Part shown: positions 5,606-56,533 of the stretch, one piece after another
Numbering within the stretch: position 1 is the first letter of the stretch
Layout: each line of letters starts with the position of its first letter
DNA from: Strigamia acuminata
Taxonomy: Eukaryota; Arthropoda; Chilopoda; Geophilomorpha; Linotaeniidae
Direction of reading: 5' to 3'
Length of the DNA stretch: 64,000 bases
Assembly: GCA_949358305.1 (NCBI GenBank)
Contig: OX442322.1
Coordinates: 4,030,001-4,094,000, forward strand
Notes under the pieces: model-generated
Databases searched by the model: none
Told to the model about the DNA's origin: nothing
The model's input: the letters and a program-made list of their open reading frames with translations, nothing else
Position numbers and translations under genes: made by a program

Positions 5606-5638
5606 ATGTAAAATGTCGGTGTTGAATGATCGAAAAAG

Positions 5639-11249: not shown

Positions 11250-11261
11250 CCTCTGCTACCA
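11250..11261 (-). other. Primer-binding site of element B (tRNA-iMet)
   Basis: On the minus strand, TGGTAGCAGAGG lies two bases inside the 5' LTR. It is complementary to the 3' end of initiator tRNA-Met, the usual copia-type primer. Confidence 0.85.
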
Positions 11262-11263
11262 CT

Positions 11264-23449: not shown

Positions 23450-23977
23450 TGTAGCAGAGGAGTGCGCAAAAATATCGGTTGTAACCGATTGGAAGCGTGA
23501 AATGGAGCTGTGCGGCCCGCACAGACATTAACGATACGACGCGTATCGTTTCGGCAAAGCGCGCGACCTAATGTCGCTTATATGCGCTGTGTAAATGCAC
23601 TGAAATGTGCACTAAAAGAACGAGAATACTTAAAATAATAATAACAATTTAATATAAACACAATACGTTACAAATAAGAGTCCTAAAAGATGAAATTCAG
23701 CTAAGCTGCACCAAATCGTGTGCAGCGCCATGTTGGATTGAAAAAGCAATGAGTAGTGGCACCTAGTGCCGTGAATTGACAATAACATAGGATAAATCAT
23801 GTCTCTCAGGACAAATCATGAGGGAAAAACAATACGATGTACGGAATCTCGTACGTAACAATACTAATCGAACATAAATGTGATTAACAACCAAATGATA
23901 GTGAAAACAAGTTAAACATCGAGATATATGATAATCTAAATATATTATATCGACAAAAGATGGTCTTTAGACCAACA
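23450..23977 (-). repeat. 3' LTR of element G (528 bp)
   Basis: On the minus strand it runs TGTTGGTCTAAAG to CTCTGCTACA. The adjoining PPT cgaagaggggatt occupies 23978-23990. Confidence 0.95.
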
Positions 23978-24192
23978 AATCCCCTCTTCGATGTAATATA
24001 ATAAGCAGGGGACGAGAACGGACACTGGAATTACAGTATATAATTATTTGAAAAGATAAACAATAAAGTTTCGAATCACCGAGGCGGGTACTATTATTGA
24101 AGAACTCTTCTCTAAGGAAGCCCGAAAATTCCCTCTATTACTCGATGATCCTCGAAATCGGGTGAAAATAAAATAGGAATGTCACGATCTGT

Positions 24193-30247: not shown

Positions 30248-30263
30248 CCATCCTCTGCTACCA
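30248..30263 (-). other. Primer-binding site of element G (tRNA-iMet)
   Basis: TGGTAGCAGAGGATGG on the minus strand, one base inside the LTR, is complementary to the initiator tRNA-Met 3' end. Confidence 0.88.
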
Positions 30264-30264
30264 A

Positions 30265-30792
30265 TGTAGCAGAGGAGTGCGCAAAAATATCGGTTGTAAC
30301 CGATTGGAAGCGTGAAATGGAGCTGTGCGGCCCGCACAGACATTAACGATACGACGCGTATCGTTTCGGCAAAGCGCGCGACCTAATGTCGCTTATATGC
30401 GCTGTGTAAATGCACTGAAATGTGCACTAAAAGAACGAGAATACTTAAAATAATAATAACAATTTAATACAAACACAATACGTTACAAATAAGAGTCCTA
30501 AAAGATGAAATTCAGCTAAGCTGCACCAAATCGTGTGCAGCGCCATGTTGGATTGAAAAAGCAATGAGTAGTGGCACCTAGTGCCGTGAATTGACAATAA
30601 CATAGGATAAATCATGTCTCTCAGGACAAATCATGAGGGAAAAACAATACGATGTACGGAATCTCGTACGTAACAATACTAATCGAACATAAATGTGATT
30701 AACAACCAAATGATAGTGAAAACAAGTTAAACATCGAGATATATGATAATCTAAATATATTATATCGACAAAAGATGGTCTTTAGACCAACA
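30265..30792 (-). repeat. 5' LTR of element G (528 bp)
   Basis: This is the promoter-side LTR. It is near-identical to the other copy. Confidence 0.95.
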
Positions 30793-31597
30793 GTGCTGCG
30801 GTGCATCCGCAGGTTCCTCATTGATGCGTTGCCCAAATTGTCGAGGACGGAAGACGCGACCGCGTTTGGAGCCGTGGAGAAAGAAGGTTCAGCCCCATGT
30901 AGTGAAAGGCATTAAGCCTAACGAGAAGCAATGTTGGGCTCACTGCCCAAAGTGTCGATTGTTTTTGAACAGCCGCGGCGAGGCTGTGTATATCGACCCA
31001 CGTTTTCTCACCTGGACCCGCGCTGAAGCCAACGCCGGTGTAAGAGTCGAACTCCTTCGACAATCGCCGCCGCCGTCCGAGAGCTCCGAAGTTTCTACTG
31101 AAACTGTCCAAGCCCTCGAAAGCGTCGGAAGCGAGGTACAAGAGGAATTCGTTCGACCAAGAGCAATGTCGCGTGGCAGAGGCTGCCTCACGCTCGATCG
31201 AGCAAAGGAGATTGCCAAGGTTCAACGAACCAACATCTTGGCACGAGGGCGAGCCCGTAAGCTTCGACAGGCTGTAGAAGGATCGGCTAAACCCGTGGAG
31301 GATCCTCCAGCGGCAGTAACCGACGTGTCTAGCGCCCCTCCCGCGTCTAAGTCTGAAACTTCGGACGAGGCACAGTTCGAAGACGCCGAGGAGATGATCT
31401 CTGTCATCGATTTCGTGGCCGAGCTTCTCGAGGATCTGCCGTCTCCACCTCCGAGTCCGGAAGAGATTGAAGCGCCGGAGGAAGCTGTGTTTTCCGCCGT
31501 CTCGACAGAGGCGACTGAAGAGTCTGATTTTCTGACTTCTGCTGAAGTCGAGAAGAAGGAAGAGAAAGATTCGACTGACGTCGAAAAGAAAGAATAG
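30793..31597 (+). pseudogene. ORF3 of gypsy E, C-terminal part
   Basis: This continues ORF3 after the right GTGCT duplication of element G. It carries the second half of the zinc module (MRCPNCRGRKTR), then a third Cys pair (CWAHCPKCRLFLNS), the conserved AVYIDPRFLTW segment, an Arg-rich stretch (RPRAMSRGRG), and a long acidic C-terminus ending in Glu/Lys repeats. There is no hydrophobic segment that could be a membrane anchor, so this is not an envelope protein. F's copy (35340-36369, minus) aligns along the full length. Confidence 0.82.
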
Positions 31598-35339: not shown

Positions 35340-36369
35340 TTAATCCTCTTTTTCGACGTCAGTCGAAACTTTCTCTTCCTTCTTCTCGACTTCAGCAGAA
35401 GTCAGAAAATCCGACTCTTCAGTCGCCTCTGTCGAGACGGCGGAAAACACAGCTTCCTCCGGAGCTTCAATCTCCTCTGGGCTCGGAGGTGGGAACGGTA
35501 GATCCTCGAGCAATTCCGCCACGAAATCGACGACGGAAAGCAACTCCTCGGCGTCCTCGAACTGTGCGTCGTCCGAAGTCTCAGACTTAGACGCTGGAGG
35601 GGCGCTGGACACGTCGGTTACGGCCGCTGGAGGATCCTCCACTGGTTTAGACGACGTTTCAACAGCCTGTTGCAGCTTACGAGCTCGCCCTCGTGCCAAG
35701 ATATTGGTTCGTTGAACCTTGGCAATTTCCCTCGCTCGGTCGAGCGTAAGACAGCCTCGCCCACGCGACATCGCTCTTGGTCGAACGAATTCTTCCTGCA
35801 CCTCGCTTCCGGCGCTCTCGACGGCCTGGACAGTTTCAGTTGAAACTTCGGAGTCTTCAGACGGCGGCGGCGACTGTCGAAGGAGTTCGACTCTTACGCC
35901 GGCGTTGGCTTCAGCGCGGGCCCAGGTGAGGAAGCGCGGGTCGATGTAAACCGCTTCGCCGCGACTATTCAGGAAAAGTCGGCACTTTGGGCAGTGAGCC
36001 CAACATCGCTTCTCGTTAGCCTTAATGCCTTTCACCACGTGGGGCTGAACCTCCTTGCGCCACGGCTCCGAACGCGGTCGCGTTTTCCTTCCTCGACAGT
36101 TGGGACATCTCATTAATGAGGAACCTGCGGATGCACCGCAGCACCACCCACAACCGACGCAAAAGGGGCAGATCGTCTCAGTTGCCTGGTCCGTCACGAT
36201 GTTATCGTGAGGTATTCCGGCTGCCATGTCTCGTTCGCACTGCTCCTTGCGCAGGCGGGCCTTCTCGTCCTTTTTTCGTGCCTTATTGGCCGCTCGGTAC
36301 TCGCGGTTGCGAGAAACAGGCTCCGAATAACGCAAAGCGCCCGGCGGCGGCTCATTCCATCCATATTCT
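35340..36369 (-). pseudogene. ORF3 of gypsy F, C-terminal part
   Basis: The frame is open from the junction with copia C to the stop. It contains EYGWNEPPPGALRYSEP, a Lys/Arg-rich helix, AAGIPHDN, the zinc module CPFCVGCGW to CPNCRGRK, a third Cys pair CPKC, AVYIDPRFLTW, an Arg-rich stretch and an acidic Glu/Lys tail. Apart from C's insertion it is undamaged, so F preserves the best ORF3 of its family. Full ORF3 would be about 500 residues. The CxxCxGxG spacing resembles the DnaJ zinc module, but no J domain is present. Function unknown. Confidence 0.85.
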
Positions 36370-36853
36370 TGTTGGGTCAAAGCAGTTTTTCATTTCACGT
36401 ATTAACGGCGCACCTTTTCTGGCTAAGTGCGTTAAAGGCGAAATTCGGGTCGCATTGTTTACTGTACTGGAATCGAGAGCCAACTGCATCTGACTGTCGC
36501 AATGCGTGTTAAATACTACAGTTGGCTCATGTTTATCAATGGATTTCGAGTTGTCGTCTGCTATGATTTAGTTTATCTATTATTTCCCCCAGTGCATTAT
36601 CCAGTGTTAATGCTGGCTTTGAGTTATCTTTACTTTGGTTATGTAAAGAACAAATCAACCTTTCCATCAGGATGATTTGTTCTACTTTTAGATCGAGGGC
36701 AAATAGCCTCGACACCTGTACATATTCACTTGCTCACCTGTTCTTGCCTGAATAAAGATGGCCGACGCGTTTGTGCGGTTTTCAGGCACAAAATGACTTT
36801 CGTTTCGTCTCCAGTTTATTTCCCGGCGTTGACAACTTCACTTATCATCGTCA
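36370..36853 (+). repeat. 5' LTR of element C (484 bp)
   Basis: It runs from TGTTGGGTCAAAG to CATCGTCA and contains AATAAA near its end. It matches 54505-54988. Confidence 0.95.
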
Positions 36854-38156: not shown

Positions 38157-39810
38157 TGTGACAAATTAGCAATAGATGGCGCCACTAGTACTAGCGGCAA
38201 ATTCAACCTCGAGCTTACTATTTCCCATATAAATAGTTCACAAACATATTATTATGTTTGATACGACCAAATGTGATTCACATCGATAATATAAAGGTAT
38301 ATTATCAATACTTAAGAAGATAAAAATAGGCGTTACTGCTTTATCACCGATACATGACGAGGAACACGGTTTTGAATGTATTTCCGTTCTGTGTATCCAT
38401 TTCCTGTCCCCGGTATCCAGTTCCGGTTTATGCTAAAAGATTAACATAATCCCAATTTGCATCTCCGTATCCACTTCCTGCGATACGAGATTGGTGGAAC
38501 CTAATCCCACCGAGTATAAAACTCCCTGACAACAGGAAGTTAAGTTAGTTCTTGATTTCTGGTTATTTGGTATGTTCCGCATGTCAAATAACTGTTTCTT
38601 ACTCAGGGCATGGGCCTACCGGTCCATGCATAGCATGGCTCTGCTGAGCCATGCAACCCCCGTCAACTGAAGGCGAAGTTCGGACTGTTAATGTTTCCGT
38701 CAAACGGTCTTGCCGAGGAGAAAGCCTCCCGCATAAGTATCCTCGTGGTCGGACAATAGAATCACGTGTGATACCAAAGTATTTAGTAACCGTTAGTAGC
38801 ACTGTTACTGAAAGAGATTGACTCCATCACTTGATGGTGCCAAAGCAGTCTGCATGCAAAACATGCAGTTACCGCCAGTAGCACTATGTGTTTGGGAAAG
38901 TTATATCTCTTCGGTGATGGTGCCAAAGCAGTCTACTTATGAGTAGTATCTCGGGTGATTAATTCTGTTGTGCAGAACTGCGGGCTATATCCCCCTGAAT
39001 ACCAGTGCCGTCTCTCACCGCACTGTTATTTAGGGCACGCGCGATACTGTTCTGCTCGGCAAGGCGAACTTTGACGGCAATTGTGTGTTGCGATGTTTAA
39101 CCTTTATTATATTTTGTAGTTGATAAATACACCTTAATTGTTTAAACTTGGCAACAAGTTAACAACCGAAGTAAGTCACGAGACTTATTTCACTGTATGA
39201 CGAATCAAATTCGTAACAATAAATTGAATACAATTTATTGAGTTAATTTATTAAACTCACAACATCGCGAATTAAATATAATTCGCAAGCGGAACCTTGG
39301 CGAATAAATGACTTCATTTATTCATTACCAATTTCCAACCCTAGTTGTGGCGGTGCACATGAGTCAACCGCACCTCTCGGATCGAACCAAGAAGCATTAC
39401 ACGGACCATTACACGATACGGACCTGGAACGCGAACGAAGCAGTTCCACGATTACGAAGCGCCGACGGAAGCCGCGAGGACACAGCCAGCCCGGCTATCG
39501 CAGACGACATCTATAACTCGGTCGAGCGGGCGTTTTGCCGTTCCCGAACCCCGGATCACCAATAACCGTAATCATATTATTTCAGGGCTGTTTTACAGCC
39601 AATTTCATGTATAGTTTAACTTGTATTTAACTTGCCAAATGTCGGCATTAGTCATTTGTATAACTTTAGATTTGTTTATATTGTTTGATAACAATAAATG
39701 TCTTGTTTTGATAACTCTGTTGTATTTATTTATCTCGTTACTATTCACTAATTCACGCGACTTATACCCGGTACTATCATGCGATAGGAGTTGTGGTCGT
39801 CACCGTCACA
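38157..39810 (+). repeat. 5' LTR of element D (1654 bp)
   Basis: The U3 holds TAGATGGCGCC (38173-38183) and the TATA box TATAAAAC (38516-38523); AATAAA lies at 39693-39698. R/U5 is therefore over 1.2 kb. Hairpins with mainly 4-nt loops occur throughout: 38241-38260, 38285-38306, 38525-38536, 38633-38654, 38824-38837, 38933-38946, 39145-39160, 39172-39187, 39217-39240, 39267-39286, 39302-39323. An 85-codon frame (39308-39565) has no visible relatives. Confidence 0.95.
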
Positions 39811-40621
39811 CGTGGAGGTTCCACCGAGATAGGTTGCAAAGTTTAAATTTACCGAATTTAAATAAAAGTGAAAATTGAGATAAATAAAGAGTATAACATT
39901 TCAAAACATTTTATATGTCTCTGCTTTTGCGAAGTAGGGAATCCTCTTTAAGAACGTTGGGATTCGTGAGAACTCTAACATTAAAGGGAAAGTTTCGTTG
40001 TGTTGAAAAAACACTTAAAATCGAAGTAAAATTAATTTTAATTTTCACGAAACAAGGCTTGGTAAAATTCCAATGTTAGTTGAATATTTTCGTAAGAAAT
40101 ATCCAATCAGTAACGAGATTGACCAGGCCAAAGTGCGGACGTAGTAGAAAACTACTAAAATAAAGGATTAGTTTCCATTTTATCATTGGATAAAATAACT
40201 TTCCACCAATAAAGTGTCGAGGGATTAAAGGATTATCGATCCTCGATGCCACGCGGATCCAGACTACAGACGACCATTCGTATCCAGACCAGACCTGCAG
40301 ACACGTGCTCCAGTAGCCATCTTGACCACGCCGTCCCGTTCAGTCCCGATTCGAATTTTCCACGCCGTAAACCAGCTAAAGTTAAGTATATTTCATCTAT
40401 TATTTTAACAAATAGTTTAAAGCGCCTTCTCACCCGACGCTAGTTTACTTGTAGTAGGATTCATTTGATTGTTTAAAATTTATCGATAGTTTAACACGTT
40501 TACCCAGCACGTGGAGTTTAAGCTTAACCTTATCGAAGTGTATTGTTATTTTGAAGTGTATTTTTTTTTATATAAAGTGTGTTATCGTTCTTTAGTAATA
40601 AAGAATTTAAAAACTTTTATC
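39811..40621 (+). other. PBS candidate and leader of element D
   Basis: TGGAGGTTCCACCGAGAT starts two bases after the LTR, at 39813. It is the PBS candidate by position, but I cannot match it to a tRNA. About 800 bp of AT-rich leader with hairpins follows, then Gag at 40622. No gene was seen. Confidence 0.55.
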
Positions 40622-42733
40622 ATGTCTGACGAAAACATTCATATGAATGAACGAGAAGTTGATGACGGAAACTTGGAAAATAGTTACGTCCGACTCGAAG
40701 ACCAAACGGATTTAATTCCGGACGATTTGACAGAGTATTGTCGACTCTATAATCTAAATCGGGCTGATTTCAAAACAATAACCGAAGCGGTTAATCATGT
40801 ACGCGTACTTGAGAAAAGAAATCAGAGAATTAGACCCGATGAAGATGAAAATTCGGAGAACGAAAGTCGGCATTCGCGGACTTCACACCGAACCCCACGA
40901 AAAACGATTCCCACGAATCGTAAGCTGGACTTTCCCTCTCCTAAAAAGAGGTTGGGATATCAAGCCCGGATAGTGTCGACTCCACAGCTAAACGATAGAA
41001 TGGTACGCGAACCATCGTTTAGCCGATCTCGTAGTCAACAAAGTTCTGGACAAAGAACACCCAACTCTAATAGTCCTTTAAATCTAGCCAAACCAAGGTC
41101 TAGATCGACTAGTGTTAATCGAACGATTAACAATAGTAATTCGGGTTTTATCCCCCAAACTTCGGGGAATAGACAAAATGTCTCCCAAAACTCTGGACAT
41201 AGACAGTATGTTACTCCAACATCTGGAAATAGACATTATGTCCCCCCGACACCGGGGAAAGGACAGTTTGTCCCCCCAACGCAGTCAAAAAGAGTGTCAA
41301 ATCGAACTCCAAGGAGATCCGATCCGATCTCACCATCCCCCGTTATTCAAAATTTACCGGTGGGAAAGACTCGTTCAAATCAGACACCCCCAGAACGAGT
41401 ACAAAATGAAAGTAGTGTTCCACATGGACAACATGTACCATCTGGCAATCATACACAGTATGAAAATTATGTTCCTCCAAGGAAAGAAATCCCCCAGGAC
41501 AATCAGGTCCCTAAGGGAAATCTGCCCAATTTTGAACATAATTCTGGTTCGGCATCCTCTGCTGGTAGTTCATCTCAAGCGAGATTTTCCACCGACGACT
41601 TGGGAGCCATCCTTACCCATGTGCGAAATATTCAAACTGATTGTGCACAGCAAGTACAACAATTTATGCAGAATAATGCACAGCAAAATAATAATGCAAA
41701 CAATTCGAGCAAAACCTTTTTCAAAGGTCAGGATATGCCTGTTTTCGATGGAAAACAGAAGGACGTGGCTAAATTTTTAGCTACAGCCAAAACAGTCGCT
41801 GTCGCTAAAGGTTTGACTCTGGATGAGATGGTAAAACGCGGAATACCAACTTATTTATCTGGTATAGCCCACGAATGGCATACCGATAACCTCGACAAAT
41901 TTGTTGACTGGAAAACTTTCGAAAAGTTATTTTTGGCGGAGTTTGACATGATCCCTGTCACTCGAGCCCGAAAGCTTCGAAATTTAATCCAGGGCCCAGA
42001 AGAGCCACTTTATACATTTCTTTTGAGATTTAAACAAGCTCAAGGATCTTATTCAAAAAGAGATGAAGCTCCCACTCTTCTCGAGAATTTGAACTTAGTT
42101 AGTTACAATCGAATAATCGATAGAGGTCTCTATGAAGAATCATTTAATGACATATTTCAATTTGTCCGGCAGAATAGGGCTCTTTTCGAAGCCCAAAATG
42201 CTAGTGTGGACACTATTGCCAATAAAGAAGACGAAACTGCCCCGTCAAATACTCAAAAAGGTAAAGACGCCAGGAGTTCGCGCCCACTCATACGATCTAC
42301 TCAGACGTTGAACGCCGAACCAGAAGTTGTACCTATGGAATCTGACGAGACAGACAATCTTGAAAACGATGTTGGATTCAACAACATGGTATGTGCCCTA
42401 TCGGAGAAAGCAACTGGAAAATGTTTCCATTGCAATCAACCAGGACACTTTAAGAGGGAATGTCCTTTGTTACAAAAAAGAAAATTTGTTCAGGACAAGC
42501 CCCAAGGTACTGGTAATAATACCAATACCAATCCCGCCTCTGATCTTTTTAAACGACAGAGACAAAATTGGGTGACCGCTGAATCCTTGGACCAAAAGCT
42601 TGAAGACTTCAAAACTACTATGCAAACTAGTATGACAAAATCCATGTCGGACTTATTCACTAAATTTTTGGATCCAAAAAATGCGACCACTCCGCCTTTG
42701 GCGATTGAAGGTCCACCGACTCCAAAAAACTAG
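40622..42733 (+). CDS. gag: Gag of gypsy D
   Basis: The start ATG at 40622 (MSDENIHMNEREVDDG) is preferred over the upstream in-frame AT-rich extension, which lies in leader sequence. A charged N-terminus leads into a Ser/Arg/Pro-rich region with repeated TSGNRQ/TPGKGQ units (about 41150-41290), then the retrotransposon Gag domain (DMPVFDGKQKDVAKFL; HEWHTDNLDKFVDWKTFEKLF) and a CCHC knuckle CFHCNQPGHFKREC at about 42422-42463. About 703 codons, intact, and similar in layout to E Gag. Confidence 0.9.
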   Translation: MSDENIHMNEREVDDGNLENSYVRLEDQTDLIPDDLTEYCRLYNLNRADFKTITEAVNHVRVLEKRNQRIRPDEDENSENESRHSRTSHRTPRKTIPTNRKLDFPSPKKRLGYQARIVSTPQLNDRMVREPSFSRSRSQQSSGQRTPNSNSPLNLAKPRSRSTSVNRTINNSNSGFIPQTSGNRQNVSQNSGHRQYVTPTSGNRHYVPPTPGKGQFVPPTQSKRVSNRTPRRSDPISPSPVIQNLPVGKTRSNQTPPERVQNESSVPHGQHVPSGNHTQYENYVPPRKEIPQDNQVPKGNLPNFEHNSGSASSAGSSSQARFSTDDLGAILTHVRNIQTDCAQQVQQFMQNNAQQNNNANNSSKTFFKGQDMPVFDGKQKDVAKFLATAKTVAVAKGLTLDEMVKRGIPTYLSGIAHEWHTDNLDKFVDWKTFEKLFLAEFDMIPVTRARKLRNLIQGPEEPLYTFLLRFKQAQGSYSKRDEAPTLLENLNLVSYNRIIDRGLYEESFNDIFQFVRQNRALFEAQNASVDTIANKEDETAPSNTQKGKDARSSRPLIRSTQTLNAEPEVVPMESDETDNLENDVGFNNMVCALSEKATGKCFHCNQPGHFKRECPLLQKRKFVQDKPQGTGNNTNTNPASDLFKRQRQNWVTAESLDQKLEDFKTTMQTSMTKSMSDLFTKFLDPKNATTPPLAIEGPPTPKN

Positions 42734-42758
42734 TAGAGGGGGTTACCGAAAACCCCCT
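42724..42758 (+). promoter_or_regulatory. -1 ribosomal frameshift signal, gag-pol of D
   Basis: A AAA AAC (42724-42730) is followed by TAG. After 6 nt, AGGGGGTT (42737-42744) pairs with AACCCCCT (42751-42758) around a 6-nt loop. The -1 frame is open into pol. Confidence 0.9.
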
Positions 42759-45700
42759 AAAAAACCAGAGTAATACATTATCCTCAGAAATAGAAAATGT
42801 TCTAAACGAAACGCTGAACAAATTAGTAATTCAAGATGAGGAAATTAAACGACCTAATCGTAGAACTAGGAAAAGGAATCCAAAGTATGTATTTAAGGAA
42901 CCTTATCCCAACACTCCTTTTTCAATGGAAGAGACTGAAAATCCATTTACATCATTCGATGACGACCTCTTTCCTGCGGATAAGGGGGACGAATCTTGGC
43001 GAGAGTCCTTGAATGCAATAATTGAAAGCGCTGTAAATCCTCCTGTTCGAGAGGAAACCACTAGTTCTAGTGGAGGAGTATGCGAAAGTTTGGAGGCAAT
43101 GATGGAAAATTTAGATATCTCCTCGAAATTATCTAGACATCATAGACTTCGTAAATATGTCAAAGAACATCAGCTCAAGAGAGCTGAAGTAGTTGAACGC
43201 ATCAAACGTTTAGGAAACAGTAGCGACGACCCCCGAATGAAAATAACAATAGGTGGACTCACCTATAATGCTTTAATGGATTCAGGAGCCACCCAATGTT
43301 TTATTGGATTACAATTACTTGACAGTACTTGTGCCTCCCCTGACTTCATTCAAGATTGCCCCCGAAATATGAAAGTGTGCCGTCGGCATAACTCATATCC
43401 CACTAGGACAAATAACCCTTTGTGTTCAATGGGCAGATGGAGTAGAATTCACTCCAATGAATTTCATCATTTTAGACCGAAATGTGTGTGGCCTAATTTT
43501 AGGACACAATTTTATGCGTCGTACAACAATTAATTTAAATCCAGCACGAGCTGTATTTGACTGTGACAACAAACCTGGTTGGACTGCGCCTTACGTGGAT
43601 AACGAATTTAATGACAGTCTAGCGAGGTTACGCACACTAAGAGACGACGGAACAGTCACTCATACACCCGACAATTGGGAAGAATTGTTGGTGAAAGATT
43701 GTGATTGTTCCGACGAGGATAAGACCAAATTACTAGAAGTAATTTCTGGAATCAAGCACGTCTTTCGGGACAAAGTTGGTTGTACGAACCTTGCCAAACA
43801 TAAAATTACGTTTAAAAAGGACGCGAAATGGAAAAAACAACCGTTTCGCATGTACAATCCAGCAAAAATTGCGATTATGACCAAACTAGTTGAAGAGCTA
43901 GAAGCAGAGAATCTCATTGAGAAATCTACGGGGCCTTACATAAGTCATCCCGTAATAGTTGCCAAACCAAATGGCACATATAGGTTATGTATTGATTTCC
44001 GATGGTTAAATGCGATCACCGAAATCAATGCAATCCAAATGCCCAGTATTGATTTGCTCATGCACAATACTAATCAGGCAAAATACTTCACCTCACTTGA
44101 CCTTACAAAAGGATATTATCAAGTAGAGATGGAAGAAGAAGATAAGCAGAAAACTGCTTTCTATACTCCGAAAGGCAACTATCAATTTGTACGTATGCCA
44201 TTTGGGTTATGTAACGCGCCTTGTACATTTCAAGCCCTAATGGAACAAGTTATGGGTGACGCGTTATATAAACACGCATTAGTCTATTTAGACGATGTAA
44301 TTATCTTTTCTCAGACTTGGGATCAACATCTCGGTCACATTAAAGATGTATTAGAACGACTAGACAAAGCAAACTTATCCGTAAATAAAGAAAAGTCTAA
44401 GTTCGGCAGAACTACGCTAAAATTTCTGGGACACCTAATCACGCCAAATGGATTGGCCCCGGATCCTGATAAAATCGCGTCAGTACGAAAATTTCCCACC
44501 CCAAAAACATCGAAAGATGTACAAAGGTTTCACGGGTTGGCAAATTTCTTTAGGAAGTTTATTCCTAACCACGGTGAAATTGCTACTCCACTGACTAGCA
44601 TAATGCACGAGAAAGCAACCTTTGTCTGGGGACAAGAGCAAATAGACGCTTTCGAAAGAATTAAAGACATTTTATGCGACGAAACTCAAGTTTTGTTAAT
44701 GCCTAACATGCTCGAACCCTTTGTGATTCTAACAGACGCTTCACATTCAGGATTAGGAGCAGTGTTATGCCAAGATGTGGACTTTCTTGATAAAAACAAG
44801 GACAAATGGATTAAAACTCCAAGACCCGTAGCTTACGCTAGTCGCGTACTTCGAGGAGCCGAGCAACGTTACACTACTCCCGAACTAGAGTGTCTAGCGG
44901 TAGTATGGGCTGTAGAACGTTTCCGCCCTTACATAGAATACACGTCTTTCACCCTGGAGTCAGATGCAGAAGCCTTAAAATGGCTAATGGGGACGCCAGA
45001 ACCTTCTGGTCGTTTTGGCCGATGGGCAATTAAACTGCAATGCGGCGCCTTTAAAATTAAGTATCGTCGTGGTACTCAAAATCAAGTCGCAGACGCATTT
45101 TCAAGAGCTCCTTTGAGTATTGAAGACATTCCGAAGGATGATTATATCGAACCCACAGAAATAACTCAATTCTGGCCCGAGTGGGACGGAAATAAAGAAG
45201 TTACTCGTAGAGAAGAACCAAAACCCTGTCAGTTCTTAACAAACGTGTCAGTAAAGTTTGATTATTCCAAAAAATTAAATAATTCTTTGGAAAAGGGGGA
45301 GAAAGGTCATGTAGAACCAGAAACTTTATTTAGTGCTTTAACCGAAGTACTAAGTATAGTTCCTCCTACCAGAGCAGAAATCATAGAAGCTCAGCTCAAG
45401 GATTATGAATGTAGAAAAATAATAACTCATCTAAAATTAGATGAAGTTGAGCAAAAGAAAAATAAGAAAACTAAGCGATGGATGAAAGACATCAAAGGCT
45501 ACCAACTAGATTTCAAAGAAAATCATGATAATGAAGATGAGAATAGTAATGATTCTGAAATGTTAATCTTCTTCAAACCAACATTTGAAGAAGAATTAAA
45601 TGATTCCGGCAACGGATTTAAAGCGGTGATTCCACCGTCTTTAGTACGACGAGTGTTGTTCGCATGCCACGGACATCCGTTAAGTGGACACGCAGGGATG

Positions 45701-47089
45701 AGTAAAACGCTCGAACGAGCGAAACTCATTTATTATTGGCCTAAAATGAGCAAGGACACGTGTAATTATGTTCGTAGTTGTGTTCATTGCCAACAATACA
45801 AACCTAGTCAACACCGAAAAAACAGAGCGAGTTATACTCCTCACAATATGGCACAGCCATGGGAAGTTCTTTGTTTAGACTTCATGGGTCCCAAACCCGC
45901 TGGTCAATACCAACATAAATATATTTTAGTAGGAATTGATCAATGTACTAAATGGGTAGAATTAGCCCCATTAAGCAAAGCTTCAAGTGAAGCAATTATA
46001 ACAAAGTTAGGTGATATCGTACATAGATGGGGATACCCCAGGAAAATTATCAGTGATAATGGAAAACAGTTCGCATCCACCATCTATGAGGGTTTCTGTA
46101 AAAGGCATAACATTAAAATGACGCATATAAGTCCTTATCATGCCCAGGCCAACCCCACAGAACGGGCAAACAGGGATATCAAAATAATGCTTGCAATTTA
46201 TTCTGATGTGCACTCTCACTGGCCACGTTTTCTGAATGAATTTGCATTTGCATCCAGAACGGCAAAATCCGAAGCAACCGGATCGACGCCATTTTTATTA
46301 AATACGGGAAGAATAGTAACACTACCTTTCGACCCGCGAATTATTCAACACGCGAATAAATTCGATAAAAATAACCCTGAGGAATTCGTGTTTAATTTAC
46401 TCGGGATTTTACGAAGAGCACACCAAGAAATGCACCGTAGGATCCAACTAAATTACGAGAAACACGACAGAATTCACCGTAATAAATTTCATATTTGCAA
46501 ATATGAAGTAGGTGATTTAGTCTGGAAAAATACACATATTCTTTCCAATCAAGACAAAGGCATTACTAAAGGATTTGCTGAAAAACGAGACGGACCGTGG
46601 GAAATCACGGCCGTATTAACAGGAGGTGCATACGCCTTACGAAAATTATTAGATGACTCAATTGAACCATCAATAAATACGGATGATCTCACCCCGTATA
46701 TCCCTTCATACCCGATTGAGACATGGACTCTGGGTCAGAAAAAAAGAAAACTGAAAGATCATCCAAACCCTGATTGGATGTCGGCAAATTCCGAATTTAA
46801 CGAATCTAATTCACAAGAATTGGATAATCAAGATATGGAAGAAACCTCTCGTGAAAATCTTGAAAAAGATATGGAAGAACTTCCTCAAGAAACTCTTGAA
46901 CAAGAAGAAAGAATAATTCCTACCTCAAATGAAAATGGAAACGAGATTATCGATCCGCGAAGTAATAACTCAAATAAACGGAAGCGAACAGCTGACCTTC
47001 CGGAGATAATCTCGAGACCGAAAAGAACTTCGAAGCCAAATCCGAAATATACTACGGATTTTGTGCAGATGATTCAAGAACGTCGTTAA
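42731..47089 (+). pseudogene. pol: Pol of gypsy D
   Basis: Entered from the frameshift site. A long N-terminal acidic region leads to protease MDSGATQCFIG (about 43276-43310). A 1-bp deletion near 43378-43382, seen by comparison with E and F, shifts the frame within protease. The remainder from about 43383 is open: RT with VYLDDVIIFS (about 44282-44311), RNase H TDASHSG, integrase zinc finger (CHGHPLSGHAG, SCVHCQQYK), core (CLDFMGPKPAG, ISDNGKQF, ANPTERANR), a GPF/Y-like KRDGPWEI and a Lys/Arg tail. Apart from the single-base lesion all key residues are present. An assembly error at that base is possible. Confidence 0.9.
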
Positions 47090-47679
47090 AAAAAGATTCT
47101 AAATATAAAAAGAATATTCTAAAAAGATATTGATTCAAATCAGTTATTGAATATTCAAATCGAAATTCGCGAAGTCACCTGGTAACTTATGACCCCGGGT
47201 GGAGAGTAAAAGATTCGTTCTATATTCAGTCTTCTAACACACACGTGAGAGAAGAAGAACTTCGTCGAATTCAACAAAAATCACGAACAATTGCGTCGAT
47301 ATTGTTAGCCATTAAACAAAGAATACAGGTATGATGATCATACATATGAATTAATATATATATCATGACATCTCTTTATATTTAAAGAAATACAAACCAG
47401 CGGAATTCGTTTATTAGCGGCGGAGGATTTGAAAGCCACGTGCTCTAAACTCCAAGTTATCGTCGAAGCGACTATACTTAGAATTCTACAAGCTACGCTT
47501 CTAAAGGAAGCAGGACATTTTCGTAAGTTCGATAAAATTATCAATACACGAAAGTGTAAAGTTGTAACGAATTATAATTATAAAATTCGTAAATTGAGTT
47601 ACGCGTCTTCTCAATAGAGGGCGCGCGCATACAAAAGTATTGCAAATAAAACTAAAACGTTTTCTATATTTGTAGAATT
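47090..47679 (+). promoter_or_regulatory. Pol-ORF3 intergenic region of D with candidate intron
   Basis: A donor-like cag|gtatga (GT at 47329) and an acceptor tttctatatttgtag (AG at 47674-47675) bracket a 347-nt candidate intron ending four bases before the ORF3 ATG. The arrangement is the same as in E and F although the sequences are not alike. No other gene was seen. Confidence 0.5.
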
Positions 47680-49289
47680 ATGGTCAAGAAGATACCAATT
47701 AAAAAGCGGCGAATTGTGATTCAGTCGAGCTCTTCGGAGGAAGACGATACACCCACGGTCAACCCGACCATCGTAACAATCCCGGGAGCGCCAAATACTC
47801 CTATTGTGCTCGACCAAAAAGGATGGGACATATTAACCTGGGCCCGAAACAACCCAGAGGCTCTCCCAAAGGAAATTCGTCCAAAAACGGCTGTACCCAA
47901 AACGGCGATGGAGGTTACCCAAGAAACCTTCATTATACCAAAAAAGGACAGTTTCTCCAAAAGCCATCCTTTACAGCCGGTCCATAAACCAAGTACGAGT
48001 CGAATGAACGATTCATCGACCTCTCATGAGAGAAGTCTGGACGAGATTGTCCAATTAGAGGCGAATCGAAATCCCGAAGGAAATCGCCATCAAGACAACA
48101 AACGTAAACAGCGAGAGTACGTTCATTACGACTCGCCGCCACCCACGACTTCGCGCGAAGTAGTGTATACTCCTAGACATAATATAGCTAGAGGGAAACG
48201 TACGTTTGTGTCTACCAGAGCCCCCAAACTGCAGCCGATGACTGTTCAACAAAGAGCAGCTAATAAGCAAGAAAAGGCACTACGTCGAAAAGCCGCCTGC
48301 GATCGCGACCTGGAATTGGGAATTCCACACGACAATTTGGAGCTCGCGAAGGGCGAAATACCGTGCCCCTTTTGTTTCGGGGTCGGCTGGATGTCCGGCT
48401 CCGGGACAGGATGCCATTTGGCATCGTGCGGGAATTGTTTCGGATCGAAAAGACGATAAAAATCCAACCCTGGAACCCAAAGTTTGTTTCATTCGTGGTT
48501 AAAGGTTTGTTCGATCCAATACCCCGAAAATGGGCAACCTGCCACCTTTGTAAAGCTTTATTATCTAACGATGGCAAAGCTGTATACGAGGATCCCGAAT
48601 TTATGAATTCGCGAAGAACGCCCCTTGGCCTTCAAATGGGTTTGGAAAAAATGCCAAGTGTTGTCTGCGTAGATAACGCGACCCAAACGGAAGAAACCGC
48701 ATTGGTTCCCATGCCAAATATCGCGGAACACGGGATTTCGAACGAATTCTTAATCGAACCCTACCAAGTTCCCCCGAACACCAAGATAGGACAGTTATTC
48801 GTTTGGGAGGTCGAATACTACTATCCCATCGTAGCTCGACTTGCGATAATAATTTCTCGCCAATTGATTACGGGTCTTCCCGATCAAATAACGGTAGGAT
48901 ACGTGACCCGGATCATGCAAATGATCTTGAATCCACGTCGCGTTGAGGGCTTCAACATTTTGGAGCACCTTTGGAATTTGCTCGTGGGAAAAATCGCAGC
49001 TGAGATGAAAAATCAAATATGCGAAGGCTGGATTTTGGTTTTGCCCCCGGTGATTGACATCTACGAAGATCTCAAGAAAATGATCGATGAAGAAGACGGA
49101 TCGACTGATCAGCCTGAAGCAGGGGATAAAGCACCCGAGACTCCCATCGCCACGGAAGTTGTTGCGACCGCTGCATTCTTCATAGATCGGCAACCGGAAG
49201 AACCTCTTCCCGCCAAGAAACGTGGCAAAAGCTCCTCTTCGAAGGATAGGCAAAAGCCCGCCACGGAGACCGAAAAAGGTCAAGAATAA
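47680..49289 (+). pseudogene. ORF3 of gypsy D
   Basis: Starts MVKKIPIKKRRIVIQSSSSEED. It shares with E/F ORF3 a basic start, a Trp-containing helix (GWDILTWARNNPEALP), a Lys/Arg-rich helix, LGIPHDN, the zinc module CPFCFGVGW to CGNCFGSK, then a third Cys pair CHLC and the AVYEDPEF segment. A single-base frameshift near 48440-48460 lies between the second and third Cys pairs; both halves (47680-48459 and about 48450-49289) are otherwise open. The C-terminus differs from E/F and ends in a Lys/Ser-rich tail. No membrane anchor or signal peptide. Function unknown. Confidence 0.82.
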
Positions 49290-49652
49290 GCGGTATTTCG
49301 AATTTAAACAATTAGCAGTTTGTTTGTGTGTTCTGTGATAAAAAGATATAATATGTAACCGAAAAATTCTTTAATTAAGATTTTTGTAAGAAGTGCTTTT
49401 CCGTTATACGAAAATGACTTCATGTTTATTGTTTTAATAATAACCAAATTATTTTTATAACCGTCTCTAAAAAGAGAAAATAAAAACATTTTTGAGCATC
49501 CTAAGGATAAGAACATGTTTATTAAAAACACTCGTGGGCCTTATAAGTATTGGAAATAAAATATTTATTAATATGGATAAATTTGGCACAAATGATATTC
49601 CTAAAGAATAACATAAAATATAAGAGTATATGTTTAGTTATTAAGGGGGATG
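49290..49652 (+). other. 3' tail and PPT of gypsy D
   Basis: Short AT-rich non-coding tail ending in the PPT aagggggatg. Nothing else was recognised. Confidence 0.75.
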
Positions 49653-51306
49653 TGTGACAAATTAGCAATAGATGGCGCCACTAGTACTAGCGGCAAATTC
49701 AACCTCGAGCTTACTATTTCCCATATAAATAGTTCACAAACATATTATTATGTTTGATACGACCAAATGTGATTCACATCGATAATATAAAGGTATATTA
49801 TCAATACTTAAGAAGATAAAAATAGGCGTTACTGCTTTATCACCGATACATGACGAGGAACACGGTTTTGAATGTATTTCCGTTCTGTGTATCCATTTCC
49901 TGTCCCCGGTATCCAGTTCCGGTTTATGCTAAAAGATTAACATAATCCCAATTTGCATCTCCGTATCCACTTCCTGCGATACGAGATTGGTGGAACCTAA
50001 TCCCACCGAGTATAAAACTCCCTGACAACAGGAAGTTAAGTTAGTTCTTGATTTCTGGTTATTTGGTATGTTCCGCATGTCAAATAACTGTTTCTTACTC
50101 AGGGCATGGGCCTACCGGTCCATGCATAGCATGGCTCTGCTGAGCCATGCAACCCCCGTCAACTGAAGGCGAAGTTCGGACTGTTAATGTTTCCGTCAAA
50201 CGGTCTTGCCGAGGAGAAAGCCTCCCGCATAAGTATCCTCGTGGTCGGACAATAGAATCACGTGTGATACCAAAGTATTTAGTAACCGTTAGTAGCACTG
50301 TTACTGAAAGAGATTGACTCCATCACTTGATGGTGCCAAAGCAGTCTGCATGCAAAACATGCAGTTACCGCCAGTAGCACTATGTGTTTGGGAAAGTTAT
50401 ATCTCTTCGGTGATGGTGCCAAAGCAGTCTACTTATGAGTAGTATCTCGGGTGATTAATTCTGTTGTGCAGAACTGCGGGCTATATCCCCCTGAATACCA
50501 GTGCCGTCTCTCACCGCACTGTTATTTAGGGCACGCGCGATACTGTTCTGCTCGGCAAGGCGAACTTTGACGGCAATTGTGTGTTGCGATGTTTAACCTT
50601 TATTATATTTTGTAGTTGATAAATACACCTTAATTGTTTAAACTTGGCAACAAGTTAACAACCGAAGTAAGTCACGAGACTTATTTCACTGTATGACGAA
50701 TCAAATTCGTAACAATAAATTGAATACAATTTATTGAGTTAATTTATTAAACTCACAACATCGCGAATTAAATATAATTCGCAAGCGGAACCTTGGCGAA
50801 TAAATGACTTCATTTATTCATTACCAATTTCCAACCCTAGTTGTGGCGGTGCACATGAGTCAACCGCACCTCTCGGATCGAACCAAGAAGCATTACACGG
50901 ACCATTACACGATACGGACCTGGAACGCGAACGAAGCAGTTCCACGATTACGAAGCGCCGACGGAAGCCGCGAGGACACAGCCAGCCCGGCTATCGCAGA
51001 CGACATCTATAACTCGGTCGAGCGGGCGTTTTGCCGTTCCCGAACCCCGGATCACCAATAACCGTAATCATATTATTTCAGGGCTGTTTTACAGCCAATT
51101 TCATGTATAGTTTAACTTGTATTTAACTTGCCAAATGTCGGCATTAGTCATTTGTATAACTTTAGATTTGTTTATATTGTTTGATAACAATAAATGTCTT
51201 GTTTTGATAACTCTGTTGTATTTATTTATCTCGTTACTATTCACTAATTCACGCGACTTATACCCGGTACTATCATGCGATAGGAGTTGTGGTCGTCACC
51301 GTCACA
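49653..51306 (+). repeat. 3' LTR of element D (1654 bp)
   Basis: Same length as the 5' copy and no difference seen by eye. The PPT aagggggatg abuts it at 49643-49652. Confidence 0.95.
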
Positions 51307-54300
51307 ACGAGAGAGGCAAAAGCACATTCTACGCTTTGCCTGAGCTGCAATGAAGCCCAGCAGTCAGTCGCTGTCGCCAAAGACACCGCGAGCGAGGTGT
51401 GGGAAGCGCTAAAAGAGGCTTATCGACCCACGACCCGGGCTAGGAAAGCCAGACTGCGTCGGGAGTTTCTCCAGCTCAAACTGAATGCTAACGAAGAGAT
51501 GGTCGTATTTACATCTCGCGTCGATCGAAAGGCGCTCGAGTTGAAAGAAGTGCAGATTACACTCACTGATGAGGAGATAGCATTTCAATATCTCGATTTT
51601 TTGGATCCCCAATATGAGAACTTAAAACAGGGACTGTATCATTGGGATGATACGGATTTTACCGTGGTCAAAGTGCGTGAACGTTTACTCGCCGAGTATA
51701 ACCGCATGCACGCGTATGATTCAACGTTTGGGGCCAGCGGACAACCGGATACCAGTGCTTTTACGGCAAAACAACCCTGGAAATTTAACAAACCGGGTTC
51801 TACAACAGCACAACAAGGTGTGTGTTATAATTGCGGCGGTTCGGGTCATTTCTCGAGAGAATGCCCCTCGCAAAAGAAAACGGGACAGAATCCTCAGTCG
51901 TCCAACGCTGGACCAACGTCTCAATTTAGAGGACAGCCACGTGGGAAAAATCGTGGAAAAGGAGGACGTGGTGGGCGTAAAGCCAACTTAGTCGACAATT
52001 GGATTGACGACCCGGACTCACTCTACATGGAAGTGGAGGAGCCACCGCCTCCTGTATCGTCATTTTTGTCAAATGGACCAGTAGACACCGCTTGGTACGT
52101 CGATACCGGTGCTACTGACCATTTTGCCTTTTGCAAAGAGTGGTTTGCAAATTTTAAGCCTCTCAATTACACAGTGCAGTTAGGGGAAGGGACCTCTAAA
52201 ATAGAAGGGATTGGATCTGTGGAGTTAATTTCCACATATGGCAACAGGAGTAGAGTTGTTACTTTGAACAACGTCTATTATGCTCCGAATTTTCGGAAGA
52301 ATCTTATCTCTCTCGGGCGCGCTGATGAGGCTGGCTTACGCACTTACGTTGCAGACGGCAAAATGACTTTATTTCGGAAAAAGATTGAAGACCCATCGAT
52401 AACAGCGGTACGACTTAGTAATCGTCTATATAAAGTTAACGGACATGTGTCTGTCACCTCTGTAAATGCAACTGCCATCCCTGCGCAGAAGGAGGCAGTT
52501 GGCATAAATAATTGTGTAAAACAAACTGTATTAACCATGCCTAAAGTTAAGTGTGAACTAACCACTTCTAATGTGCAATCGAATGGGAAAACGATTGTTG
52601 CAACAAATGGCGCAGTGAATAATGCGAGCAATGCGAACAATGCGCGCACGTTTAGTAATGTGGTACAGGGGGTTAATCAGACGGGAGTGAAACAGACTAA
52701 ACCTACAGTGATGGGACCGATTAAAACGGCTTTAACGGCTAATAATAATACTAATGGGAAGAGATTAGACAATGATAAAGCAATACCGATGGATTTTTGG
52801 CATGGCAGAATGGGCCACCTAAACTCAAAGGGCATTGTGATGATGCAAAAATCCACAGAAATTTTTGGCGTTAAATTAAGCAATGAATTGGCTTCTCCTT
52901 GTGATGCGTGTAATAGGGCCAAGCGGGTTAGAGCAACCTTTTCTCCAATAGCCGAGATCAAATCCAAGGGAATCTTAGATTTAATTCATATGGATCTTTG
53001 GGGGGCCGCATCATGCAAATCCTTAGGGGGGGCTGAGTATTATCTCATTATTGTGGACGACCACTCTAGATATATGTGGATCAGTTTTCTAAAGCATAAA
53101 AGTGAAACTTTTGCCCATTTTAAAGCATGGCAAGCAGAAGTCGAGCGTGCGACTTCTAGAAAGGTTAAAACGATCCGCACAGATAGGGGGGGTGAGTTTG
53201 TGTCCAAAGAATGGGATAATTATACTAAATCTTGCGGAATCAAGTGTGAACGGACCAACGCCTACAGCCCCGAGATGAATTCGGTCGCGGAGCGATCGAA
53301 TCGCACCATCATAGAGGGGGTGCGAGCTATGGAATTGGAAAATGGGTTTCCACACTTCTTATGGGCTGAGTTGGCAAATACCATTGTGTATTTGAAGAAT
53401 AGATACCCTCACTCGAGTTTACAGGGACGGACTCCCTATAATGTATTTTTCGGACGTCGTATGTCGGTGCGACATTTGCGCTGTATTGGGTCGAAAGTGT
53501 ATGTGCACATCCCAGCGCAAACACGGAAAAGCAAATTAGACAGCAGAGCTTGGTCAGGGGCCCTAATTGGTTATGCAATAACCACAGCTGGATACAGGAT
53601 TTGGGACCCACACAAGAACAAAGTCTTTGCATCGAAACATGTGAAAATTGATGAGAATCAATATTGGTACGAGGGAACACAAACAGTTTCAAAAGGATTG
53701 GGAAGTGTTGAGGCTAAGAGGGGGTTTGGATCTGATGATTATATTCATCTAATTAGCGAATCCGAAGCAGAAGAGGAGGAAGTTCCTCAAAGTCCCCCTG
53801 TGTCGACAACACAACAAACTGTTGAACCTCCTACGCAGCAGACTATTCCTGCAACGACGACGGAGCCAGAGGATGAGGCATCTACGTCTCAGCCTGCTCC
53901 ATTACCCCAATTAGACCCTAATTTACCAGAGGATGTCGCTCACACTGCAGGAGATGCTACTCCAAGTGAAGGCAGTGACGATGATGCCAGATATGAAGAG
54001 GCAGTGGCACAGTCTCCTAATGTAAGGGGCAGGCATACTGGGGCAGTTGGGGGAGTTGAATTACAACAAATTGATATCACGAAATGGAAACGAGTAGAAT
54101 ACATTAGGAAATCCGGAGCACAAGCCGGACATGTTTTCATTCACTACATTGCACCAACGGGCACTCGATTTAGAAGTCGTATCGATGTAGTGAGGTGGTG
54201 TGAGGAGGAGGACTACGAATATGATGCAGGGTTATTCGATTTTAAAGCGAAACCGCGGGCACAAGTTCCTCCACCATTTGCGAGTTTTTGTTACTTAAGA

Positions 54301-54450
54301 CAAGATACCTTAGGAGATACCATGACTGGTCTCAGCAATGAGGATTGGGGCAAGGAAATGGTTAAGGGGATTTACATCTTCGATCGGAATAAAGTCCGCG
54401 CTGAACATCGCAGACATTATGACCAAGTGGGTTTCCCGCCCACGTCTTGA
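51307..54450 (+). pseudogene. gag-pol: Gag-protease-integrase-MBD polyprotein of element C (remainder)
   Basis: One open frame of about 1,045 codons. It holds the rest of UBN2-type Gag, a CCHC knuckle CYNCGGSGHFSREC (about 51823-51864), protease WYVDTGATDHFAF, the pre-integrase region (WHGRMGHLNSKGI, CDACNRAKR), an integrase core with LIHMDLWG, IRTDRGGEF and NSVAERSNRT (all three acidic residues present), an acidic linker and a C-terminal MBD-like domain (54082-54246). The ORF then ends at a TGA (54448-54450), 54 bp before the 3' LTR. RT and RNase H are completely absent. Apart from D's insertion, nothing is broken. Confidence 0.9.
54082..54246 (+). other. MBD-like domain at the C-terminus of element C polyprotein
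   Basis: This is the clearest of the four. KWKRVEYIRKSGAQAG is followed by a Y-x-x-P-x-G turn (YIAPTGTRFRSR) and LFDFK. These match the canonical MBD order: W-K-R, RKSG, AG, P-x-G, FRS, FDF. The Asp of the DVYY motif is replaced here, unlike in A, B and G. Confidence 0.82.
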
Positions 54451-54504
54451 CGCATTATGCGATCACATTTTTGATTGAAATGGATAACTGTTTAGAGGGG
54501 GTTC

Positions 54505-54988
54505 TGTTGGGTCAAAGCAGTTTTTCATTTCACGTATTAACGGCGCACCTTTTCTGGCTAAGTGCGTTAAAGGCGAAATTCGGGTCGCATTGTTTACTGT
54601 ACTGGAATCGAGAGCCAACTGCATCTGACTGTCGCAATGCGTGTTAAATACTACAGTTGGCTCATGTTTATCAATGGATTTCGAGTTGTCGTCTGCTATG
54701 ATTTAGTTTATCTATTATTTCCCCCAGTGCATTATCCAGTGTTAATGCTGGCTTTGAGTTATCTTTACTTTGGTTATGTAAAGAACAAATCAACCTTTCC
54801 ATCAGGATGATTTGTTCTACTTTTAGATCGAGGGCAAATAGCCTCGACACCTGTACATATTCACTTGCTCACCTGTTCTTGCCTGAATAAAGATGGCCGA
54901 CGCGTTTGTGCGGTTTTCAGGCACAAAATGACTTTCGTTTCGTCTCCAGTTTATTTCCCGGCGTTGACAACTTCACTTATCATCGTCA
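54505..54988 (+). repeat. 3' LTR of element C (484 bp)
   Basis: No difference from the 5' copy was found by eye. The PPT tagagggggttc precedes it at 54493-54504. Confidence 0.95.
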
Positions 54989-54993
54989 ATTCT

Positions 54994-55484
54994 GATGCAG
55001 AAGACTCAGCACCAGCAGGAAGATGCGTAACATACGCTGATTGTCCCATCACAGTCGGTGCAGCCGCATTCGACGTGTTGGCGACGGTGGGCGCCACGCT
55101 TGCAGTTGGCGGCCGAAATTCTGGCGAATGCGGGGCCAATGGGACGTTGATAACGTTCGCGGGTGGATACGCCACTTGGGCCATCGGGGCCAATTGCGCC
55201 GACTCATAAATAGTTGGCTGCGCAGAAGTGGATGGGGCCTGCATCATCGCATTTAAGTCGAGCGGAAGTCCGTCCGGATGGACGCTTAGCCAATTAAGCG
55301 TTGCGAGTTGCAGCGGCGTCAGGGCGTACATCGAGGCGGGCGCCGTCGGTATCGGTTGGGCCCTCATGTAAGCGCGTTCCGCTGAACGGCGTTGCTCGTC
55401 ACTAGACGAGGTGGACGAGCTGGACGAGCTTTCATGACGGTGTCGTCGATGACTCCGTTTTGAGCGGTGTTTACCACTTCCCAT
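54994..55484 (-). pseudogene. ORF3 of gypsy F, N-terminal part
   Basis: Starts at the ATG at 55484 (MGSGKHRSKRSHRRHRHES), directly after ctacag. It continues through YALTPLQLATLNWLSVHPDG and a Pro/Ala-rich region to the ATTCT where copia C is inserted. The frame is clean up to that point. Confidence 0.85.
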
Positions 55485-56533
55485 CTGTAGAGGCAAATAA
55501 ATTATTTTATTAAAAATAATTCCACTCTAAATAATCATTCCTTGAGTCCAAAGAATTAAAACGTATTGTTTGCAACGAAAATACACAACTCGAGTTATTT
55601 ATAACCCTTAACACGTGACACTAATGAGTCACATTCCCCTTGTGTTTATGACACGAGAATGGACTCGCCTGACAGCGATTTTCATCGAAAATCGCAACTT
55701 GTTGATTTTTCAAAAGAAAAAATCCCTTTAATTTTGTAAACTATTTAATCCATCTTCCGAGTATCAAAGATAACTTTTCGCATTAATTAATTAATACTTA
55801 GTCTAATAAATATCTTACATCGAAAATTCATCGCCAAATAATTTATGCAAGCCTCGACCGCGACTTGATTTAAATAATTAGTGCCTACATACTTAAATCT
55901 TAATAATTCATTATTAATATTTAACTCAACTATTCGACTGAATAGTTTAAACTTCCAGAGTGATTTAATGCCGATTCACGCTTATACTACACGCGAATTT
56001 TTTAACTTTTATCGGGACGCCGATAATTTATCAATTGTTGCGAACAATTTTCAATTCTTTGGTCAAAGAAAAATAACGAAACTACTTACTGTTGGAAGTT
56101 TCGTGTTTGCAGTTGGCTAAATGAATTAGCGTCGAAATTCTCAAGTCGAAAAAGTGAAGAGGAGACGAAGGGACGAAGTCACTGGTATCCACGTGTTTTA
56201 CGAAGTGTTTGTGTGCAATGAACCCTGGGAATTTTATTCCCTATTAATTGTCGGGTTCGAGGTTTAATCACACCTCGTAAGTCTCGTACCTTCGTAATTA
56301 CGCGAGATTATCACTTTTCAAAGTAATTCTCTGTATTTTGGTTAAAATACATGTAAATACAACCAAAAATTAAAATATTCTATCGAATATTTAAGTCTTC
56401 GCAACAAATTCATATTTTTAATATAAATTTCAATAAATATCGTAATATCTGGTCCCCCGGTGTTGAGATTATAAATCACTACACCTGTCAGACATGTAAA
56501 TAATTACAGTCTTCAAGTTTTGAATAAAACTTA
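55485..56533 (-). promoter_or_regulatory. Pol-ORF3 intergenic region of F with candidate intron
   Basis: A donor GTAAGT begins at 56089 (minus strand) and an acceptor ctacag ends at 55485, giving a 605-nt candidate intron. An internal PPT copy, accgggggacc, lies at 56451-56461 and a TATA-like ttataaat near 55600-55607. All have equivalents in E. No ORF was seen. Confidence 0.55.

Follow-up and report, generated by a model that had tools for sequence, protein, structure and literature searches.

The copia elements of the window, a 64,000-nucleotide stretch of the centipede Strigamia acuminata (assembly GCA_949358305.1, contig OX442322.1, positions 4,030,001 to 4,094,000, forward strand), carry beside their integrase a domain whose methyl-CpG-binding (MBD) fold is confirmed by profile scores and predicted structures. 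These elements quite probably belong to the arthropod-type MBD copia in print since 2019. The MBD would go back to a single capture event, with an MBD2/3-like host transcript as the probable source, and would form a C-terminal extension of the integrase, staying joined to it after processing of the polyprotein and reading 5mC. Its most likely action would be to hold the integration complex at chromatin that is dense in CpG and presumably methylated, with new copies landing there and the bias arising at integration. The element labelled C would be a derivative in which gag, protease, integrase and MBD are kept and the reverse transcriptase (RT) is lost, probably served in trans by an RT-bearing relative.

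Copia elements of the window and their MBD

Self-comparison for LTR pairs reveals that the window is mostly a stack of nested LTR elements. Element B is nested in A, and G lies inside a gypsy element. Element C itself sits inside a gypsy element and contains another, gypsy3, whose identical LTRs mark it as a very recent insertion. The features are as follows.

5036-11821, reverse strand: element B, with LTRs at 5036-5593 and 11264-11821 (558 bp, 99.6% identical)
6356-7072, reverse strand: RVT_2 of element B (Pfam)
7211-7429, reverse strand: MBD of copia element B (Pfam, structure model), pocket residues kept
12655-12873, forward strand: MBD of copia element A, pocket residues kept
13012-13731, forward strand: RVT_2 of element A (Pfam), downstream of its MBD
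23450-30792, reverse strand: element G, with LTRs at 23450-23977 and 30265-30792 (528 bp, 99.8% identical)
24904-25623, reverse strand: RVT_2 of element G (Pfam)
25763-25980, reverse strand: MBD of copia element G, pocket residues kept
36366-36853, forward strand: 5' LTR of element C (488 bp, 99.8% identical to the 3' LTR)
38157-51306, forward strand: gypsy3, inside C, with LTRs at 38157-39810 and 49653-51306 (1654 bp, 100% identical)
51307-54450, forward strand: ORF of element C on the 3' side of gypsy3, consisting of the gag remainder, a CCHC knuckle, the Pol beta-barrel, integrase, an SH3-like domain, a linker, the MBD, a stub like the start of an RT, and a stop; no RVT_2
54082-54246, forward strand: MBD of copia element C (Pfam, PDB, structure model)
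54502-54988, forward strand: 3' LTR of element C, with the purine run TAGAGGGGG directly upstream

In A, B and G, the MBD stands immediately before the RT, in the order SH3, MBD, RVT_2. The ORF of C has no RVT_2 match by Pfam and ends in the RT-like stub. An MBD-like domain just downstream of the integrase in all four elements had been proposed in the initial annotation. All four segments are open frames, and the domain does follow the integrase and its SH3-like domain, but is separated from the latter by a linker whose length, calculated from the coordinates, is about 139 residues in C, 194 in B, 224 in G and 233 in A. The frame in G is open, although the interval 25763-25980 spans 218 nt and is not a multiple of three. 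The W-K/R-R start described for the domain is present in C (WKR) and B (WRR), but A and G read WVR.

The window segments 22640-23395 with 30755-31597, and 54951-55526 with 35340-36389, contain a gypsy second ORF after pol with the cysteine motif CCGASAGSSLMRCPNCRG, and a related motif is located at 47656-48459. Positions 1-1706 appear, by eye, to be a decayed copia gag-protease with KTRTENKKTAAEV repeats.

Taken as isolated segments, C (55 residues) and B reach 41.3 bits (E=1.2e-10) and 30.7 bits (E=2.4e-7) against PF01429, above the curated Pfam gathering score of 21 bits, while G (16.7 bits, E=0.0055) and A (15.5 bits, E=0.013) remain below it. Within the full ORFs, Pfam reports the MBD for C (2.9e-9) and B (1.6e-5), and reports none for A and G at E-values up to 10. 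The assignment of A and G as MBDs follows from their alignment to B, to which they are 53% and 57% identical. Among PDB sequences, the C segment (P0004) matches MBD1/2/3, MeCP2 and MBD4 with a best E-value of 2e-7, and the A segment (P0001) gives no MBD match. Structures were predicted with AlphaFold for C and B, using the four window segments as the input alignment. The C model has a pLDDT of 86.9, and 26 of its 26 PDB structure matches at E<=1e-3 are MBDs. The B model (pLDDT 74.3) has no PDB structure match at that level, and its best nine matches (E 0.011-0.040) are all MBDs. When the MBD regions of C and B were searched against protein databases, 18 and 19 candidates came up, none passing the set E-value. 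The proposed MBD identity is borne out by the profile for C and B and by the predicted folds of the same two segments, both of which match solved MBDs.

Conservation across diverged families had also been read as a sign of selection. B and C are indeed diverged, but A and G are one family, as their 3' halves are 82% identical in DNA. Between A and G, dN is 0.054 in the MBD (dS saturated), 0.041 in the RT, 0.072 in the SH3 and 0.291 in the linker, so the MBD is conserved about as well as the RT and roughly five times better than the adjoining linker. In the comparisons B-A and B-G (dS saturated), the MBD, with dN of 0.410 and 0.344, changes more slowly than the linker (0.766 and 0.968) and faster than the RT (0.202 and 0.191). 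The A-G pattern supports purifying selection on the MBD between these two elements, with room for divergence, and the MBD's faster change in the B comparisons counts on the other side.

Genome-wide copies and the RT-less sub-family

The Strigamia acuminata genome (G000) comprises 237.5 Mb in 157 contigs, and its TTAGG telomere arrays, with 18501 matches to a 40-mer and 0 for the reversed control, fit an arthropod. A PF01429 search of this genome yields 1092 first-look candidates, of which the best 150 were scored and all pass the cut-off; many lie in open frames of 1500-1700 aa, and at least one is a host exon. With 100% identity and the window included, the MBD of C is found at at least 17 places (150 of 1333 candidates scored) and that of B at at least 43 (150 of 1243 scored). 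At the best RVT_2 places (150 of 2633 scored), frames recur at 1288-1438 aa and many are shorter. Seven of these 150 places, from seven families, were read between SH3 and RT, and an MBD is present in none of the seven. A custom HMM detects the window ORFs at E-values of 3e-27 to 3e-30, a positive side that is circular because the model contains the window's own MBDs; five of the seven score 0.14 or worse and two are not listed. On contig C6, a dense cluster at 15.35-15.62 Mb holds MBDs about 80% identical to that of B in both orientations, perhaps through segmental duplication.

A tree of integrase, SH3 and RT, with the MBD core removed, separates 13 MBD rows from 7 non-MBD rows on one 100/100 branch. 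The same split appears in an earlier tree whose MBD columns were filtered by fill only, where A, B and G versus C fall into separate starred groups within the MBD side; several rows in both trees are near-copies. Because the 13 and 7 rows divide on this branch, the trees are consistent with a single capture, which would suffice for the MBD copia.

The host MBD2/3 gene was located through an MBD_C search (C5:5733299-5733592 and upstream). At this locus (L126, G000 C5:5731937-5735092), the MBD is joined to the MBD_C region, and the exons read GWKREEIIRKSGLSAGKIDVFYY and SPSGKKFRSKPQLARYLG, with a GT-AG intron inside the MBD. The retroelement MBDs, unlike the intron-split host domain, lie in unbroken frames after the integrase, as would be expected had the capture gone via RNA. 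Two other candidates were discarded. The exon C3:20309085-20309201 was at first a candidate for the host MBD gene, but its domain resembles the BAZ2/TAM type, and MBD2/3 came out of the MBD_C search in its place. A viral-contig match (L011) was rejected as chance, its ORFs being phage-like and the match confined to a short stretch.

Among the C-type loci L012-L031, the window copy included, an LTR match begins 247-256 bases past the MBD in 19 of 20, leaving no room for an RT in these 19. Loci L062 and L063 are complete C-type copies with 1125-aa frames that end as the window's C does; their domains by Pfam are gag, CCHC, beta-barrel, integrase, SH3 and MBD, with RVT_2 absent. As RT-less copies recur in this way, the C sub-family is a multi-copy derivative that has propagated with gag, protease, integrase and MBD kept and the RT lost. 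A further locus, L064, has LTRs 99.6% identical to those of C and a 1525-aa frame in which the MBD is followed by RVT_2; its tail resembles a copia RNase H by eye, with none in the Pfam output. C is probably reverse-transcribed in trans by such a relative with near-identical LTRs. The identity of C to L064, taken per 60 bases, is 33-67% up to position 51846 and 90-100% from 51847 to 54126, and then falls again over the following segment.

54127-54426, forward strand: C diverged from L064 (58-80% identity per 60 bases; 100% after 54427)

These steps in identity show C to be a mosaic whose breakpoint falls within the MBD. L062 and L063 differ by 12 synonymous and 1 non-synonymous changes in the integrase, by 1 and 0 in the MBD, by 5 and 6 in the protease region, and by 9 and 11 in the SH3 plus linker. 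Selection acting on the RT-less ORF itself is not claimed, as these counts are inseparable from recombination with RT-bearing relatives.

The methyl-CpG pocket and the places of insertion

In the structures of MBD1 and MeCP2, the methyl-CpG pocket is built from two arginines, an aspartate and a tyrosine, and the arginines, R22 and R44 in MBD1 numbering, contact the CpG guanines. Residue alignment agrees with the initial annotation that the two arginines are conserved in all four elements and the Asp and Tyr in A, B and G. The latter three keep R22, D32, Y34, R44 and S45. The alignment of C to the MBD1 chain is gapless over the pocket, and RKSG and RS are kept in it; R22 and R44-S45 are retained, D32 is changed to F and Y34 to H. 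A sample of 31 MBDs was assembled from A, B, C, G and 27 others of the genome, hand-picked to span identity classes; L002, with no pattern match and an internal stop, was left out, and L006, which may not be a retroelement, is included. R22, R44 and S45 are found in 31 of the 31, and D32 in 27, with F in its place in C and three relatives. Y34 occurs in 12, being otherwise I (6), V (6), H (4), L (2) or W (1), and the whole pocket is retained by A, B, G and nine other sampled MBDs. With the pocket intact in A, B and G and the Tyr lost in most of the sample, A, B and G could read methyl-CpG in the manner of known MBDs, while in C and many others this ability is probably reduced or absent. Methyl-CpG reading is least likely for C.

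This drift lends some weight, short of an even balance, to the alternative of an MBD that today chiefly binds DNA generally or by CpG density and in most families no longer distinguishes methylated from unmethylated CpG. Invariant R22, R44 and S45 beside a variable position 34 (and, in a few, position 32, with F and H in C) would be expected of such a binder. Position 34 is Phe even in the host MBD2/3, as it is in mammalian MBD3, and the flanks of C and B copies are not different. Retention of the entire pocket by twelve of the sampled MBDs, A, B and G among them, is at odds with this alternative, as is the title of the 2019 paper, which calls the captured domain functionally active. Element C might also be regarded, though this is a doubtful reading of its sequence, as a successful parasite of the MBD-copia parasites, lacking an RT and keeping integrase and MBD nearly unchanged in amino acids. 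With the break inside the MBD and the pocket Asp and Tyr replaced, the target recognised by its targeting module may differ from symmetric methyl-CpG.

The elements of the window themselves have CpG o/e values from 0.95 to 1.66. None of four element comparisons within the window gives a clear excess of transitions at CpG; between gypsy1 and gypsy2, they amount to 0.124 at CpG versus 0.112 elsewhere, and the CpG value is the lower one in the other three. CpG decay as a sign of methylation is not found in these elements, yet this is not decisive, because Strigamia maritima combines high CpG with reported methylation. PMC4244043 describes a high-CpG genome peak for that species, together with four Dnmt1 and one Dnmt3, and PMC8857917 gives 33.18% methylation.

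The median CpG density of 3' flanks, measured in 600-base windows, is 65.0 per kb for B (n=20, from 40 listed places) and 62.5 for C (n=18 of the 20 loci L012-L031, without L023, which is the window itself, and L029, and with the flank start of L019 extrapolated, its LTR match spanning 382 of 487 bases), compared with 45.0 for gypsy3 (n=20, the 3' LTR judged by pairing, four without a listed partner) and 34.7 for random windows of 1500 bases (n=20). B and C differ from random (p=5.6e-4 and p=3.4e-4) and from gypsy3 (p=0.022 and p=0.026). The flanks of non-MBD copia, which start 3.5 kb beyond the RT, have 30.0 CpG per kb (n=13) and a CpG o/e of 0.95, and both values differ from those of B (p=0.0018 and p=0.0084), whose flanks start directly at the LTR. 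The CpG o/e of B flanks is not different from that of random windows (p=0.34) or gypsy3 flanks (p=0.73). The groups are separated by GC content no less strongly than by CpG density, and the flank bias could therefore stem from GC or from nesting in other elements. The flanks of C, which is without the pocket Asp and Tyr, do not differ from those of B (p=0.75).

On a larger scale, B-type and other MBD elements, two diverged groups, tend to occur in the same 1-Mb bins (rho 0.30, p=5e-6), whereas B-type and RVT_2 places do not (rho -0.07, p=0.29), and RVT_2 places and other MBD elements show a slight negative association (rho -0.14, p=0.04). These comparisons rest on the best-scoring 150 B-type, 149 PF01429 (the host exon left out) and 150 RVT_2 places; the lack of an MBD was verified for 7 of the RVT_2 places, and one RVT_2 place is no more than 2 kb (rounded) away from an MBD place. 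The median distance to the nearest PF01429-listed MBD element is 0.31 Mb for B-type places and 1.02 Mb for RVT_2 places (p=2.4e-10), with 1.00 Mb for random places, and when places less than 50 kb apart are collapsed, it is 0.41 versus 1.20 Mb (p=8e-8). MBD copies are biased to CpG-dense flanks and to regions of their own, with GC content as a confounder, and this distribution agrees with targeting or with shared survival.

Clustering in CpG-dense places could instead reflect survival in gene-poor, element-rich regions, the MBD serving nuclear retention or escape from silencing, an explanation that appears rather unlikely. GC content tracks CpG density in the flanks as it would predict, and flanks resemble elements of the window in 4 of 20 cases for B and 6 of 19 for C, with 2 of 20 each for gypsy3 and random. 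MBD-less copia (7 of 7 families checked) should survive alike, yet these elements occupy other regions with CpG-poorer flanks. The 99.6% identical LTRs of the window's B copy leave little time for selection to have acted on that copy. Steering of integration by the MBD, as suggested initially, is rated plausible. It is scarcely credible that the likeness arose by chance or that an unrelated domain happens to bear an MBD-like motif: A and G do fall below the Pfam cut-off, but the scores of B and C above it and the MBD-matching predicted fold of C already refute the idea. The predicted fold of B, the constraint on the domain between A and G and its presence in a whole group of elements also speak against it.

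Relation to known systems

The initial annotation knew of no description of an MBD in copia, but the phenomenon is not undescribed: MBD-bearing arthropod elements were published in 2019. The published MBD family is reportedly Copia, with the MBD between integrase and RT. The MBDs of its centipede Strigamia elements are said to have bound methylated CpG-dense DNA, and its spider copies to have favoured methylated gene bodies. The likeness to the window elements, set side by side by description, consists of LTR elements with an MBD in the polyprotein and copies in CpG-dense regions. The order integrase-MBD-RT, as reported for that family, is matched by A, B, G and L064, and C is without the RT. 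The publication (de Mendoza, Pflueger and Lister 2019, Genome Res 29:1277-1286) is cited in the reference lists of PMC11244446 and PMC12344493, and the accumulation of MBD-bearing elements in CpG-dense places is summarised in PMC11721087. The literature search did not find the term 'CopiaMBD', and in its part on non-autonomous elements it found no description of an RT-less MBD copia. The kind of element is already known, and possible new details are a sub-family without RT, the mosaic structure within its MBD and the drift seen in the methyl pocket across families. From the original interpretation, the MBD fold, the integrase neighbourhood, the selection and the plausible steering are retained, and the novelty is given up.

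An element that carries a reader of host methylation is a direct test bed for epigenetic guidance of integration, an idea already in print. This genome offers a natural series: in some families the pocket Tyr is present, in others it is altered or missing, copia lacking the MBD provide an internal control, and one sub-family retains integrase and MBD although it has no RT. Mapping where these families insert could distinguish methyl reading from simple DNA binding.

Gypsy chromoviruses have an epigenome reader, the chromodomain, near the C-terminus of the integrase, where it may direct integration (cf. Gao et al. 2008). The window elements resemble them in the position of the reader and differ in being copia with an MBD fold; Pfam gives no chromodomain match in the four window ORFs. 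Host MBD2/3 and the retroelement MBDs belong to one domain family, the former intron-split and joined to MBD_C, the latter unbroken and placed after the integrase. TR-GAG elements are non-autonomous LTR elements with gag and no reverse transcriptase, presumably served in trans. The C sub-family shares with them a gag without an RT, and in addition keeps the protease region, the integrase and the MBD.
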